Positions 20,767-24,766 of a stretch of 64,000 bases of DNA are shown here, piece by piece. The stretch's first letter is position 1, and the number at the start of each line of letters is the position of its first letter. Under the pieces are notes generated by a model. It ran no database searches and was not told the DNA's origin. It saw nothing but the letters and a program-made list of their open reading frames with translations. Origin of the DNA: Egibacter rhizosphaerae (GTDB lineage Bacteria; Actinomycetota; Nitriliruptoria; Euzebyales; Egibacteraceae); the NCBI RefSeq assembly GCF_004322855.1, contig NZ_CP036402.1, positions 682,001-746,000 on the forward strand, in the 5' to 3' direction. A program made the position numbers and the translations under genes.

Positions 20767-21408
20767 CTACTTCTTCGCGGACTCGTAGTACGGATTGGTC
20801 CCCGACGCGTGGTCGGTGACGTCGACGACCTGGGCAACCTCGGGCACGCCCTGCATCAGGGCCTTCTCGATCCCCTGGCGCAGCGTGACCTGTGCCATCC
20901 CGCAGCCCTGGCAGCCGCCGCCGAGGCGCAGGTAGGCCGTGCCCTCCTCGAACGCGACGAGGTCGGCCCGCCCGCCGTGGGCGGCGATCTGCGGGTTGAT
21001 GTGCTGCTCGAGGAGCTGCTGGATGCGCTGGGGAATCTCCCCCGAGAGGTCGGCGTCGCCGATGTCGAGGTCCGCGGCCGGGGACGCCGGGGGCTCGGGC
21101 CGGTTCGGGTTCTCGAGGACGATTCCGCCCGTCTCGAGGTCGCCCTGAAGGTCCAGGGTCGAGCCGCGCAGCTTGTCGATGCTGTCGCTCTGGACGACGA
21201 TCGGCAGATCGTCGTGCCACTGGACCAGGTCCTGCGGGCCTGCCTCCTCGAGCAACTCGAGCGACATCGCGACCTCGTAGCGGCCCTGCCCCTCACCGGT
21301 GACCGCGAGCTTGAGGGCCAACCGTTCCGGGTGCTCGTCGCGATCGCGGATCTGCACGACCTTGGTCCGCGCGACATCGGTGACGGTGATCAGTGGCTGC
21401 TCGCTCAT
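20767..21408 (-). CDS. nfuA: NfuA-type Fe-S cluster carrier protein
   Basis: 213 residues. The N-terminal half resembles a degenerate A-type (HesB/IscA) scaffold without its cysteines, and the C-terminal NifU domain has GGGCQGCGMA with cluster-ligating Cys166 and Cys169. This domain order matches NfuA, which delivers 4Fe-4S clusters to apo-proteins. The radical SAM enzyme encoded divergently about 1.5 kb away is a plausible client, but that is inference. The gene is last before a hairpin terminator. Confidence 0.88.
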   Translation of the reverse strand: MSEQPLITVTDVARTKVVQIRDRDEHPERLALKLAVTGEGQGRYEVAMSLELLEEAGPQDLVQWHDDLPIVVQSDSIDKLRGSTLDLQGDLETGGIVLENPNRPEPPASPAADLDIGDADLSGEIPQRIQQLLEQHINPQIAAHGGRADLVAFEEGTAYLRLGGGCQGCGMAQVTLRQGIEKALMQGVPEVAQVVDVTDHASGTNPYYESAKK

Positions 21409-21647
21409 CGCTTCTCTCGCTCTCGCGGCGCCTGGCGTCCGTGGGCCAGCCTACCGGTGCGCGTCCCCGACGCCGCGCGGCTCCGCGCGGACAGCGCGCG
21501 GGCGGACCGGTCCGGTGATCGCGGGCGGCCGACCCGTGCTCCCAAGGCCCCCGACCCGTGCTTCCAGGGCGGCCGACCGTTGGACCCCCGCTGCAGGGCC
21601 CGGTGATCTCCGAGGGCAACCCGCCGCGGTCGCGGTACCGTGCGGGC
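21409..21647. promoter_or_regulatory. Divergent promoter region with a 22-base direct repeat
   Basis: The 239-base divergent gap between nfuA (minus) and the ATP-grasp gene (plus). It contains the palindrome GGACCGGTCC (21514-21523) and a direct repeat CCGACCCGTGCT followed by YCCARGG, beginning at 21529 and 21551. These could be regulator sites for the ATP-grasp/radical SAM pair. No clear -35/-10 pair was found. Confidence 0.35.
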
Positions 21648-22940
21648 ATGGCCCGCGTCGCGCTCGTCCTCCCCGCCACCACCTACCGCGCGGCCGAGTT
21701 CCTCGAGGCCGCCGGGCGACTGGATATCGACATCGTGGTGGCCAGCGACCATGGATCCGTGTTGGACGGGCTCGGCGGCGAGCACCTCGTTCGCGTCGAC
21801 CTCGGCGATTCGCAGGCGACCGCGCAACGGCTGGCGGAGGTCCACGCGCACCTGCCGCTCGACGCGGTGGTCGGCGTGGACGATGCCGGTGTGCGAGCGG
21901 CAGCGGAGGCGAGCGCGGCACTCGGCCTGCCCCACGCGCCGCCGGACGCAGTGGCCGCGGCTAGTGACAAGCAGGAGCTGCGCGAACGACTCCGCGCGGG
22001 CAACGTCGACCAGCCTCGCTGGCGAGTGATCCCCTCCGACGCCGACCTGGACGAGGCCGTGGCAGCAGCGGCCGAGGCGGTGGGCCTGCCCTGCGTGGTC
22101 AAGCCGACCCGGCTCGCGGCGAGCCGCGGCGTGCTCCGCGCCGACACCATCCGCGACGCGTGTGACGCCGCGGAGCGGGCGCGCGCGATCGCGCACGCGG
22201 CCGACGTCCCCGCCACCCTGCTGGTCGAGGGATTCGTGCCCGGCGAGGAGGTCGCCCTCGACGGCCTCGTCCGCGGCGGCGAGCTCGTCCCCCTCGCCCT
22301 GTTCGACAAGCCCGATCCGCTCGACGGCCCCGTGTTCGAGGAGACCTACTACGTCACCCCCGCGCGCCTCGACGAGACGACCGCCGCCAGGGTGACCGAC
22401 GTGGCCGCCCGGGCGGTCGCCACGCTCGGGGTCGACGAGGGCCCGGTGCACGCCGAGCTCCGGCTCCCGCCCGACCGGCCCCCGGTGGTCCTCGAGGTCG
22501 CCGCCCGCACGATCGGCGGGCGCTGCGGTCGGGCGCTCACGTTCGGCCTGGGCATGAGCCTCGAGGAGGTCGTCCTGCGCCACGCCACCGGCAAGGCGCT
22601 GCCCGCGCTGGCGCGCGAGGACGCGGCGGCCGGTGCGCTGATGGTCCCGATCCCTCAGGCGACCGACGGGGCGAACCACGGAGTGCTCGCGACGTTCGAC
22701 GGGATCGAGCGCGCCCGCGCCGTTCCGGGCGTCGAGGAGGTCAGCCGCTCGGTGCCGCTGGGCCGGACCGTGCGCCGCCTCCCGGAGGGCGACCGCTACC
22801 TGGGCTTCGTCATCGCCCGGGCCCGAACCGCCGACGAGGTCGAGGCCGCACTGCGCCGCGCGCACGCCGAGCTCGAGATACGGGTGGAACCCGCACGCGA
22901 CGTCGGCGCCGACGAAGGGAGCCCTGCGTGCGCGTCCTGA
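21648..22940 (+). CDS. ATP-grasp domain protein
   Basis: About 430 residues from ATG 21648 (MARVALVLPATTYRAAEFLE). It has an N-terminal Rossmann-like preATP-grasp domain (to about 95), then the ATP-grasp fold: CVVKPTRLAASRGVLRADT for the ATP-binding Lys/loop, LLVEGFVPGEEVALDGLV and the metal-binding end LPPDRPPVVLEVAARTIGG. It resembles carboxylate-amine ligases of the biotin-carboxylase/PurK type that make amide bonds from a carboxylate and an amine. Its 3' end overlaps the radical SAM gene by 13 bases, so both likely act in one pathway. The substrate is unknown. Confidence 0.88.
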   Translation: MARVALVLPATTYRAAEFLEAAGRLDIDIVVASDHGSVLDGLGGEHLVRVDLGDSQATAQRLAEVHAHLPLDAVVGVDDAGVRAAAEASAALGLPHAPPDAVAAASDKQELRERLRAGNVDQPRWRVIPSDADLDEAVAAAAEAVGLPCVVKPTRLAASRGVLRADTIRDACDAAERARAIAHAADVPATLLVEGFVPGEEVALDGLVRGGELVPLALFDKPDPLDGPVFEETYYVTPARLDETTAARVTDVAARAVATLGVDEGPVHAELRLPPDRPPVVLEVAARTIGGRCGRALTFGLGMSLEEVVLRHATGKALPALAREDAAAGALMVPIPQATDGANHGVLATFDGIERARAVPGVEEVSRSVPLGRTVRRLPEGDRYLGFVIARARTADEVEAALRRAHAELEIRVEPARDVGADEGSPACAS

Positions 22941-24355
22941 TGATCTCCACCTACGAGCTCGGCCACCAGCCCGTCGCCGTGGCGTCGCCGGCGGCCGCGC
23001 TCGAGCGCGCCGGTCACGAGGTCGCCTGCCTCGACCTCGCGGTCGAGGCGTGGGACGACAAGCTGGCGGAGTGGGCAGACGCCGTGGCGATCAGCGTGCC
23101 CATGCACACCGCGATGCGCCTCGGCATCGCCGCCGCCGAGCGCCTGCGCGCCGCCCGTCCCGAGCTGCCGATCGCGGTCTATGGGCTCTACGCACCAGTC
23201 AGCCGCGACCACGTGGTCGGGCGTGTCGCCGACCGCGTCATCGCCGGCGAGTTCGAGCCCGCGCTCGTGACCTGGGCCGACAATCTCGACGCGGGTCGGC
23301 TCGAGGCACCCGAGGAGGGCGGCCTCATCCGGCTGGACAAGAGCCCGTTCGCACCGCCCGCGCGGCACCTGCTACCGGAGCCCACCCGCTACGCCCGCGC
23401 GGTGATCGACGGGCAGGAGCGCGTCGCTGCCGCGGTGGAGGCCACGCACGGCTGCGCGCACGAGTGCACCCACTGCCCGGTGCCCGCCGTGTACGGCGGG
23501 AAGGTGCGACTGGTGCCCCGCGACGTCGTGCTCGCCGACGTCGAACAACTCGTCGAGATGGGCGTCGACCACCTGACCTTCGCCGACCCCGACTTCCTGA
23601 ACGGGTGGCGCCACAGCCAGCGGATCGTTCGCGAGATCGCCGCGTCGTGGCCGCACCTCACGTGGGACGCCACGGTCAAGGTCGAGCACGTGCTGCGCCA
23701 CCGCGAGCTCTGGCCGGAGTTCGCCGCCGCCGGCTGCCGGTTCGTCGTCACCGCGATGGAGTCGGTCGACGACCGGATCCTGCGCCTGCTCGACAAGGGC
23801 CACACGGCCACAGACATGGCCGAGGCCACCGAGCTGCTGCGCGCGAGCGGGATCGAGCCCCGCCCGTCGTTCCTGCCCTTCACGCCCTGGACGACGCCGC
23901 GGGGTGTGGCCGAGCTCATGGACTTCGTCGTCGAGCACGACCTCGTCGGCAACGTCGATCCGGTGCAGTACGCGATCCGCCTGCTGCTGCCGACCGGCTC
24001 GCTCCTGCTCGAGGAGCCGGAGCTCCAGCCCCATTTGGGGGCCTACGACGAGGCCGGTCTGTCATGGACGTGGGCGGCCGAGGATCCCGAGGCCGATCGG
24101 CTGGCGGGCGAGCTCGCGGGTATCGCCGAGCAGGCCGCGGCGACCGGCGAGGCCATCCCCGAGACCTTCGTCGCGATGCGCCGTGCCGTGCTCGCCGCCT
24201 GTGGCGCCGCTCATCCGGGGGAGGCCGCGCGTCGGGGTGTCCCCGAGGCCGTCCCGGACCGGCCGCGCCTCACCGAGCCGTGGTTCTGCTGCGCCGAGCC
24301 CACCGACGACCAGCTCGGGGCGGTCACCATCGCCGCCGGGTCCTCGGTCGATTGA
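22928..24355 (+). CDS. CCAEP-tail radical SAM protein with B12-binding-like N-terminus
   Basis: 475 residues from a GTG start. An N-terminal alpha/beta domain (1-about 110) resembles a cobalamin-binding domain but without an obvious DxHxxG motif. The radical SAM core has GCAHECTHCPV, CxxxCxxC at Cys176, Cys180 and Cys183. Near the C-terminus is WFCCAEPTDDQL with adjacent Cys454 and Cys455. From memory, a protein family defined by CUAEP or CCAEP tails (Sec or Cys) matches this; here both codons are TGC, so it is the cysteine form. It is overlapped with the ATP-grasp gene upstream. The reaction is unknown; a peptide or small-molecule modification is inference. Confidence 0.9.
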   Translation: MRVLMISTYELGHQPVAVASPAAALERAGHEVACLDLAVEAWDDKLAEWADAVAISVPMHTAMRLGIAAAERLRAARPELPIAVYGLYAPVSRDHVVGRVADRVIAGEFEPALVTWADNLDAGRLEAPEEGGLIRLDKSPFAPPARHLLPEPTRYARAVIDGQERVAAAVEATHGCAHECTHCPVPAVYGGKVRLVPRDVVLADVEQLVEMGVDHLTFADPDFLNGWRHSQRIVREIAASWPHLTWDATVKVEHVLRHRELWPEFAAAGCRFVVTAMESVDDRILRLLDKGHTATDMAEATELLRASGIEPRPSFLPFTPWTTPRGVAELMDFVVEHDLVGNVDPVQYAIRLLLPTGSLLLEEPELQPHLGAYDEAGLSWTWAAEDPEADRLAGELAGIAEQAAATGEAIPETFVAMRRAVLAACGAAHPGEAARRGVPEAVPDRPRLTEPWFCCAEPTDDQLGAVTIAAGSSVD

Positions 24356-24766
24356 GGAGCCGACGGGTCGTCGAGCGCCGGTGCGCGGAGACGGCCCCGT
24401 CCTCGCACCCCTCGTGTGCGACCGGGCGCGGTGCTCGTCGTCCGCCCTCGGCAACTCGGGCCCGGTGCTGGTCGTCCGCCCGTCGGCGACCCGAGCCGGT
24501 CGCGCCCGAGGCAGCGTGCGGTTACCCGCGCCGGCGCGGGTAACCGCACGGCCTCCCCAACGATGCGGTGACCGCACGCCAAGCGCGCGATTCGTGGTGC
24601 GGTTGCCCGCGTCAGCGCGGGTAACCGCACCATCGGTCTGGCCGCCTCACCCGCGCGCGGGTAACTGCACCACGACCGCCGCTTCCCAGCCCGTGCCACC
24701 GCGCCGTCCCACCGCGCCAGCGGACCGCATCAGCACGCCGCATCAGCACGCCGCCAGCGGACCGCA
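24356..24766. repeat. 411-base gap with palindromic REP-like elements
   Basis: No gene is seen here, between the 3' ends of the radical SAM gene and murB. It holds a perfect 36-base palindrome (24515-24550; arms CGTGCGGTTACCCGCGCC and its complement), a small inverted repeat TGCGGT-G-ACCGCA (24564-24576), a 16-bp stem with one mismatch and a TCAG loop (24596-24631), and ACCCGCGCGCGGGT (24649-24662). The larger elements share GCGGTTRCCCGCG. Downstream (about 24718-24780) are short repeats of AGCGGACCGCATCAGC type. The hairpins may terminate both convergent genes, or be repetitive extragenic palindromes. Confidence 0.75.

Follow-up and report, generated by a model that had tools for sequence, protein, structure and literature searches.

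The locus examined here raises the question of what a ligase and a radical SAM protein encoded in overlapping genes make together, and whether the iron-sulfur (Fe-S) carrier encoded beside them takes part. The window, the whole stretch of 64,000 nucleotides that was analysed, corresponds to bases 682001-746000 of the single-contig, 4.64 Mb assembly of Egibacter rhizosphaerae. An Nfu carrier, an ATP-grasp ligase and an ArsL-like radical SAM protein were found to form a conserved three-gene module that occurs in several phyla, with either Cys or Sec in the tail of the radical SAM protein. The coordinates of the features are given in Table 1. The ATP-grasp and radical SAM genes look to be a two-gene operon. 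Between this and the Nfu gene is a shared divergent region, in whose 239 bp no sigma-70 consensus site was found. An earlier sequence-only reading of the locus had described the overlap of the two genes, which is exact, as well as the CxxxCxxC and near-terminal CCAEP motifs, which were located at C176/C180/C183 and C454-C455-A456-E457-P458. The downstream neighbor of the radical SAM gene is murB, on the other strand. A palindromic repeat, GTGCGGTTACCCGC...GCGGGTAACCGCAC, lies downstream of the radical SAM gene at window positions 24515-24672 and consists of two palindromes and a half copy; a 14-mer from this repeat has 5 matches in the window compared to 0.35 expected, all 5 of them at the repeat. 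An anti-phage defence role was rejected, as PADLOC gave no match.

Table 1. Features of the module in the window, with the selenocysteine genes of the same genome in genome coordinates.
Feature	Position	Strand	Basis or remark
Nfu-domain Fe-S carrier gene, NfuA-like, divergent from the pair	20767..21408	-	PF01106
Divergent intergenic region Nfu/ATP-grasp, 239 bp, presumed shared promoter region	21409..21647	.	coordinates
ATP-grasp ligase, L-amino-acid-ligase type, 430 aa	21648..22940	+	ATG start; PF13535, PF18603
Overlap of ATP-grasp and radical SAM genes, 13 bases	22928..22940	+	ORF coordinates
CCAEP-tail radical SAM protein, 475 aa	22928..24355	+	GTG start; NF040546, PF02310, PF04055
C176xxxC180xxC183, motif for SAM-binding [4Fe-4S] cluster	23453..23476	+	sequence, alignment
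Tail motif W-F-C454-C455-A-E-P-T-x-x-Q462	24281..24313	+	tail alignments
Codons TGC TGC for C454-C455	24287..24292	+	second codon TGA (Sec) in 45/94 relatives
SECIS-like hairpin site of Sec relatives	24290..24331	+	3-bp stem in the window; loop-like CAGCTCGG kept
tRNA-Sec, SelA and SelB set of the window's genome	G000:C1:1605401-1605493, 1653060-1654370, 1656596-1658470		

The radical SAM protein passed the family model NF040546, for CUAEP/CCAEP-tail radical SAM (seleno)proteins, with a score of 547.1 bits over residues 3-464 against a curated cut-off of 500 bits. This is the family with Cys and Sec versions to which the sequence-only reading had pointed, and Sec forms were indeed seen among the relatives. 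The second-best family was ArsL (NF040542), with 286.8 bits against a cut-off of 450 bits, and all other family models gave 57 bits or less. Comparison with Pfam revealed a radical SAM domain (PF04055) and a B12-binding-type N-terminal domain (PF02310, 39.2 vs 32.1 bits). The DxHxxG cobalamin-ligand motif is absent from residues 1-130 and from the family consensus; it is also missing from some B12 radical SAM enzymes. The AlphaFold model of the protein had a mean pLDDT of 93, with moderate to good confidence in the tail through the Cys pair, and the closest folds were those of AprD4, MgmA, OxsB, TsrM and MiaB/RimO. ArsL and Dph2 were not among the best 50 structural matches listed, which is no evidence against kinship. 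The literature searched, which did not extend to the NCBI selenoprotein papers, contained no paper on the CUAEP/CCAEP motif and no tested function for NF040546.

Alignment of 63 relatives showed that C176, C180, C183, E450, W452, C454, the second Cys/Sec, E457 and P458 are invariant, and the motif W[FY]C[C/U][A/S]EP could be read in 93 of the 94 complete tails. Judged from these alignments the CCAEP tail is not a chance feature, and loss of conservation among homologs, which would have refuted the proposal, was not observed. Proteins of NF040546 were present in 23 of the 396 genomes of a phylum sample (the window's own and 22 others), most of them with an in-frame TGA. The first tail residue was Cys in all 94 readable relatives, while the second was Sec (TGC/TGT-TGA) in 45 and Cys (two Cys codons) in 49. 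The Sec forms contain a hairpin with a CAG-containing loop approximately 15-31 bases past the TGA, and an apical stem of at least 6 bp was found in 40/45 Sec sequences compared to 6/50 Cys sequences. The tree requires at least 12 switches between Cys and Sec, 7 of which are forced by well-supported branches, and places the Cys form of the window within a mainly Sec clade. Genomes with Sec forms mostly contain SelA and tRNA-Sec, and genomes with Cys forms contain no SelA or SelB above the cut-offs, with the sole exception of the window's genome, which keeps both together with tRNA-Sec. The Cys in the window tail was therefore not forced by loss of this machinery, so that loss of Sec decoding is excluded as its cause, and with the complete set present the genome should make other selenoproteins. 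Residue Q462 is unlikely to be a mere SECIS fossil, as 47 of the 48 motif-containing Cys forms keep the Gln.

Three further observations concern individual members of the family. The radical SAM CDS of Thermomicrobium roseum (L138:9935-11371) is annotated to stop at the Sec TGA, with the CUAEP tail and the hairpin lying beyond it. One Sec form, with an AceE neighbor, falls within an otherwise Cys clade (L117), which could reflect a regain, a transfer or several losses. A copy from an assembly labelled as a Bifidobacterium breve MAG (L093) is near-identical to that of G016, a genome from another family, and this assembly is probably mislabelled or contaminated.

The ATP-grasp protein contains the domains PF13535 (ATP-grasp_4, 85.4 bits) and PF18603 (LAL_C2, 58.5 bits), both above gathering. 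The closest solved structure was that of the L-amino acid ligase BL00235 (PDB id. 3vot), and superposition of the AlphaFold model (pLDDT 93.3) with 3vot_A gave a Z score of 38.9 and an rmsd of 2.8, with 393 aligned. As modelled, the protein has an L-amino-acid-ligase fold, from which the joining of amino acids with ATP is inferred; this type of ligase fits the small-molecule or peptide pathway suggested by the sequence-only reading. The ATP-grasps of the module have in common the motifs FDKPDPLxGPxFEE and AxRSIGGxC, with Cys293 invariant. The gene is single-copy in the window's genome, and 61 of 97 loci have it close to the radical SAM gene. Where the two were not adjacent, an ATP-grasp of 40-56% identity was present elsewhere in 19 of the 20 genomes tested, compared to 2 of 25 related genomes that lack the radical SAM protein (Fisher p 1.6e-9, uncorrected for kinship). 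The genomes used as controls all belong to the window's own class, and the set of loci is biased towards relatives of the window and metagenome assemblies. The ATP-grasp neighbor, whose absence from relatives would also have refuted the proposal, is thus conserved.

The divergent gene had been named nfuA. Its product matched PF01106 with 79.1 bits, above gathering, and TIGR03341 with 114.7 bits over residues 7-208, below the NfuA equivalog cut-off of 269 bits, so that 'Nfu-domain protein, NfuA-like' is the safer name. The protein consists of a degenerate A-type N-terminus and an Nfu domain with CxxC. A direct search within 4.5 kb at 61 fully flanked loci gave Nfu at 44, ATP-grasp at 42 and both at 40, some of the Nfu matches lying at contig ends. 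Four gene orders were observed, and the tree needs no fewer than 14 changes between arrangements. In Actinomycetota and most Chloroflexota the Nfu gene lies upstream and is divergent. Rokuibacteriota, Planctomycetota and Ignavibacteriota have it directly downstream, and KSB1 and Poribacteria upstream, in both cases on the same strand; in a few loci it is downstream on the opposite strand. Pfam distinguished two Nfu architectures, A-type with Nfu and Nfu_N with Nfu, and a further locus (L126) contains an A-type carrier alone; because the architectures differ between loci, distinct Fe-S carriers were recruited to the same place. The module Nfu proteins have a well conserved D-[VT]-TDHAxGxNPYY...K tail, and a similar Nfu C-terminus is found in E. 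coli NfuA. In the papers searched, no report was found of Nfu partnered with an ATP-grasp and radical SAM pair.

When the radical SAM gene was located elsewhere, Nfu was still found beside the ATP-grasp gene in 14 of 19 genomes, and it adjoined the ATP-grasp gene in both of the two ATP-grasp genomes in which no radical SAM gene was detected. For the one or two nfu genes of a genome, proximity by chance is expected, by inference from genome size, in far below 1% of cases. As Nfu follows the ATP-grasp more closely than the radical SAM enzyme, it is probably a member of the pathway. The earlier suggestion that it supplies the cluster of the radical SAM enzyme thus stands in so far as Nfu is a conserved partner, but not in the sense of a mere supplier. 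The corresponding alternative, in which Nfu only loads or repairs the radical SAM cluster and the product of the pair is an ordinary dipeptide-like small molecule with no link to Fe-S metabolism, draws on the requirement of radical SAM enzymes for clusters and on the renewal of the auxiliary cluster of lipoyl synthase by NfuA/NFU1. It is nevertheless considered unlikely, given that the linkage of Nfu to the ATP-grasp persists both where the radical SAM gene is elsewhere and where none was found. In addition, only the three cluster cysteines and the tail pair are invariant, which makes a second, sacrificial cluster in the radical SAM enzyme unlikely.

The other recurrent neighbors were DUF169, SufT, SufS, lipoate/PDH genes and SaoD/DsrE-family genes, which mostly have Fe-S or lipoate functions. 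In Chloroflexota lipB-lipA-aceE(-aceF) adjoins the radical SAM gene (L065, L066, L069, L071, L073, L078, L080, L082 and L089) and in Acidimicrobiia a divergent aceE lies near it (L074, L099, L109, L112, L115 and L117); these are two separate associations. DUF169 (PF02596) is a neighbor in 22 loci (for example L088:7272-8045), in several arrangements with at least 12 changes on the tree. The SaoD/DsrE-family genes (NF040913) were found near 7 loci, and no other SAO genes were identified next to the pair, models for the Sao transporter and SaoC/SaoL not having been applied. The SaoD/DsrE-family gene of the window's genome (NF040913, 197 bits; L144:6924-7295) lies far away from the pair, with a glycine-cleavage T-like gene next to it. 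A role in replacing mycothiol was rejected: an MshC-like protein, below the curated cut-off, is encoded by the window's genome and by relatives whether or not they have the module, so that there is no anticorrelation.

The chemistry of the radical SAM protein was approached through its nearest characterised family. ArsL is reported to cleave SAM to a 3-amino-3-carboxypropyl radical and to transfer this to arsenite, and it makes AST-OH (PMC8552651). Alignment of the window protein with four ArsL/RCCLKC proteins revealed that SxxExGxQP, CxxxCxxC, K290, P320-W321, R351-L352, G357-S358, W382 and D390 are common to both, and the vicinal Cys pair of ArsL aligns with that of the CUAEP proteins past the last common W...D.L segment. 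Because of these common residues, the most economical guess is that the radical SAM enzyme would cleave SAM as ArsL does, giving a 3-amino-3-carboxypropyl radical. Vicinal Cys/Sec pairs are classic binders of thiophilic atoms, and the tail therefore most likely presents the acceptor, which may be a soft sulfur, selenium, arsenic or metal species onto which the aminocarboxypropyl group would be moved. The ATP-grasp would then activate a carboxylate with ATP and couple the newly made amino acid with a second amine; given that ligases of this family join amino acids, the adduct is probably converted to a peptide-like compound. The Fe-S genes around the pair, Nfu foremost among them, point to a role of the product in cluster carriage, in which the small molecule and the Nfu carrier may together hold, protect or move Fe-S clusters, or to modification of Nfu itself. 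ArsL-like chemistry and a ligase producing a small molecule used with Nfu is the best explanation of the data as a whole, but its chemistry and product are inferred and it is held tentatively, with somewhat less than an even chance of being correct. No reaction has been observed, and since the ArsL cut-off is not met the acceptor and even the mode of cleavage may differ. The structures ranked highest were those of radical SAM enzymes of the B12, AprD4-like and MiaB-like types, several of which make the 5'-deoxyadenosyl radical. The Nfu protein may be no more than co-regulated, or may be a client or a substrate.

The likeness to ArsL, together with the vicinal Cys pair, would also be expected if the radical SAM protein were a diverged ArsL with arsenite bound by its tail, forming an amino acid like hydroxyarsinothricin for the ATP-grasp to convert to a peptide. 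An ATP-grasp gene is present in 6 of the 7 ArsL/RCCLKC plasmid clusters inspected (L140, L141, L142, L167, L168 and L169), including one on a conjugative Klebsiella plasmid, which with the known synthesis of AST-OH by ArsL speaks for such an organoarsenical. No ligase of this kind is part of the arsQML pathway as reported, so that the final product of the RCCLKC plasmid clusters may be a peptide. The ATP-grasps of the arsenic clusters that were scanned are of the PRK02186/L-amino-acid-ligase type; they are 19-23% identical to that of the window, a distance that also counts against the best explanation, and lack Cys293 (SIGGxC) at the aligned place. To judge by these comparisons, the pairing in the arsenic clusters is a parallel design in a sister system, and as such it also speaks for the best explanation. 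Within 4.5 kb of the 97 loci no homologues of ArsM, ArsB, ArsC, ArsH, ArsN or ArsQ were found, and ArsR-like matches occurred in only two. This absence, the constancy of Fe-S genes as neighbors and a broad distribution that resembles core metabolism rather than an antibiotic island make an organoarsenical product quite improbable.

A slimmer chance is given to a diphthamide-like modification of Nfu, in which Nfu receives an aminocarboxypropyl group from the radical SAM enzyme and the ATP-grasp extends or amidates this group, altering cluster carriage by Nfu. The tight linkage of ATP-grasp and Nfu and the conserved tail of the module Nfu proteins would be consistent with this, and transfer of an aminocarboxypropyl radical onto a protein is known for Dph1-Dph2 (PMC8552651, PMC11048331). 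However, the L-amino-acid-ligase relatives of the ATP-grasp use free amino acids. The Nfu tail is also perhaps not specific to the module in view of the similar C-terminus of E. coli NfuA, no comparison with unlinked Nfu proteins having been made. A graspetide-like RiPP pathway, with an encoded precursor peptide as the substrate of both enzymes, is very improbable: ATP-grasp ligases and radical SAM enzymes are both found in RiPP clusters (PMC8939145), but the ATP-grasp here is of the L-amino-acid-ligase type and no conserved small ORF was found near the pair, the recurrent small ORFs looking like antisense shadows of known genes, nfu and the ATP-grasp among them.

If the explanation based on ArsL-like chemistry and an Nfu-associated small molecule is extended, a widespread and unreported Fe-S pathway can be envisaged. 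In such a pathway a (seleno)radical SAM enzyme would use aminocarboxypropyl transfer to form a C-S, C-Se or other C-metalloid bond, the ligase would turn the adduct into a peptide-like cofactor, and with this cofactor Nfu-type carriers would hold Fe-S clusters or deliver them to recipients such as lipoyl synthase and the pyruvate dehydrogenase route. This extension is speculative, and is doubtful in its full form. Were Fe-S handling the role of the module, there would be a small-molecule or modification partner of Nfu carriers, so far unknown, in many environmental phyla, and a testable role would be gained for a selenoprotein family of unknown function. If true, ArsL-type chemistry would extend past arsenic. 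The natural swaps between Sec and Cys provide a ready series for asking what selenium contributes to the tail.

Compared with known systems, the window protein shares the score, the tail and the choice of Cys or Sec with NF040546, with no defining difference. With ArsL it has in common SxxExGxQP, CxxxCxxC, many barrel residues and a tail of vicinal cysteines. One clear difference is that the ArsL tail is shorter, with RCCLKC at the very end, while that of the window continues as CCAEPTDDQ...; ArsL proteins are also found in arsenic operons, had no Sec forms among the few read, and have a cut-off that the window protein does not reach. The SAO (Sec-assisted organometallic) operon contains vicinal Cys-Sec motifs thought to bind metals (PMC13188914). 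The module resembles it in this motif and in the SaoD/DsrE-family gene near some loci, but the other SAO genes were not identified beside the pair. The ATP-grasp shares its whole fold and LAL_C2 with BL00235 and BacD/YwfE (Z 38.9 and 31-32, respectively), while identity to these ligases is approximately 25% or 20% and the window subfamily has motifs of its own and the invariant Cys293. NfuA and NFU1 share the Nfu domain with CxxC with the window Nfu protein, whereas the papers searched report a partnership with an ATP-grasp and radical SAM pair for neither. The protein families themselves are already known, and the novelty lies in the association of Nfu, ligase and radical SAM enzyme.
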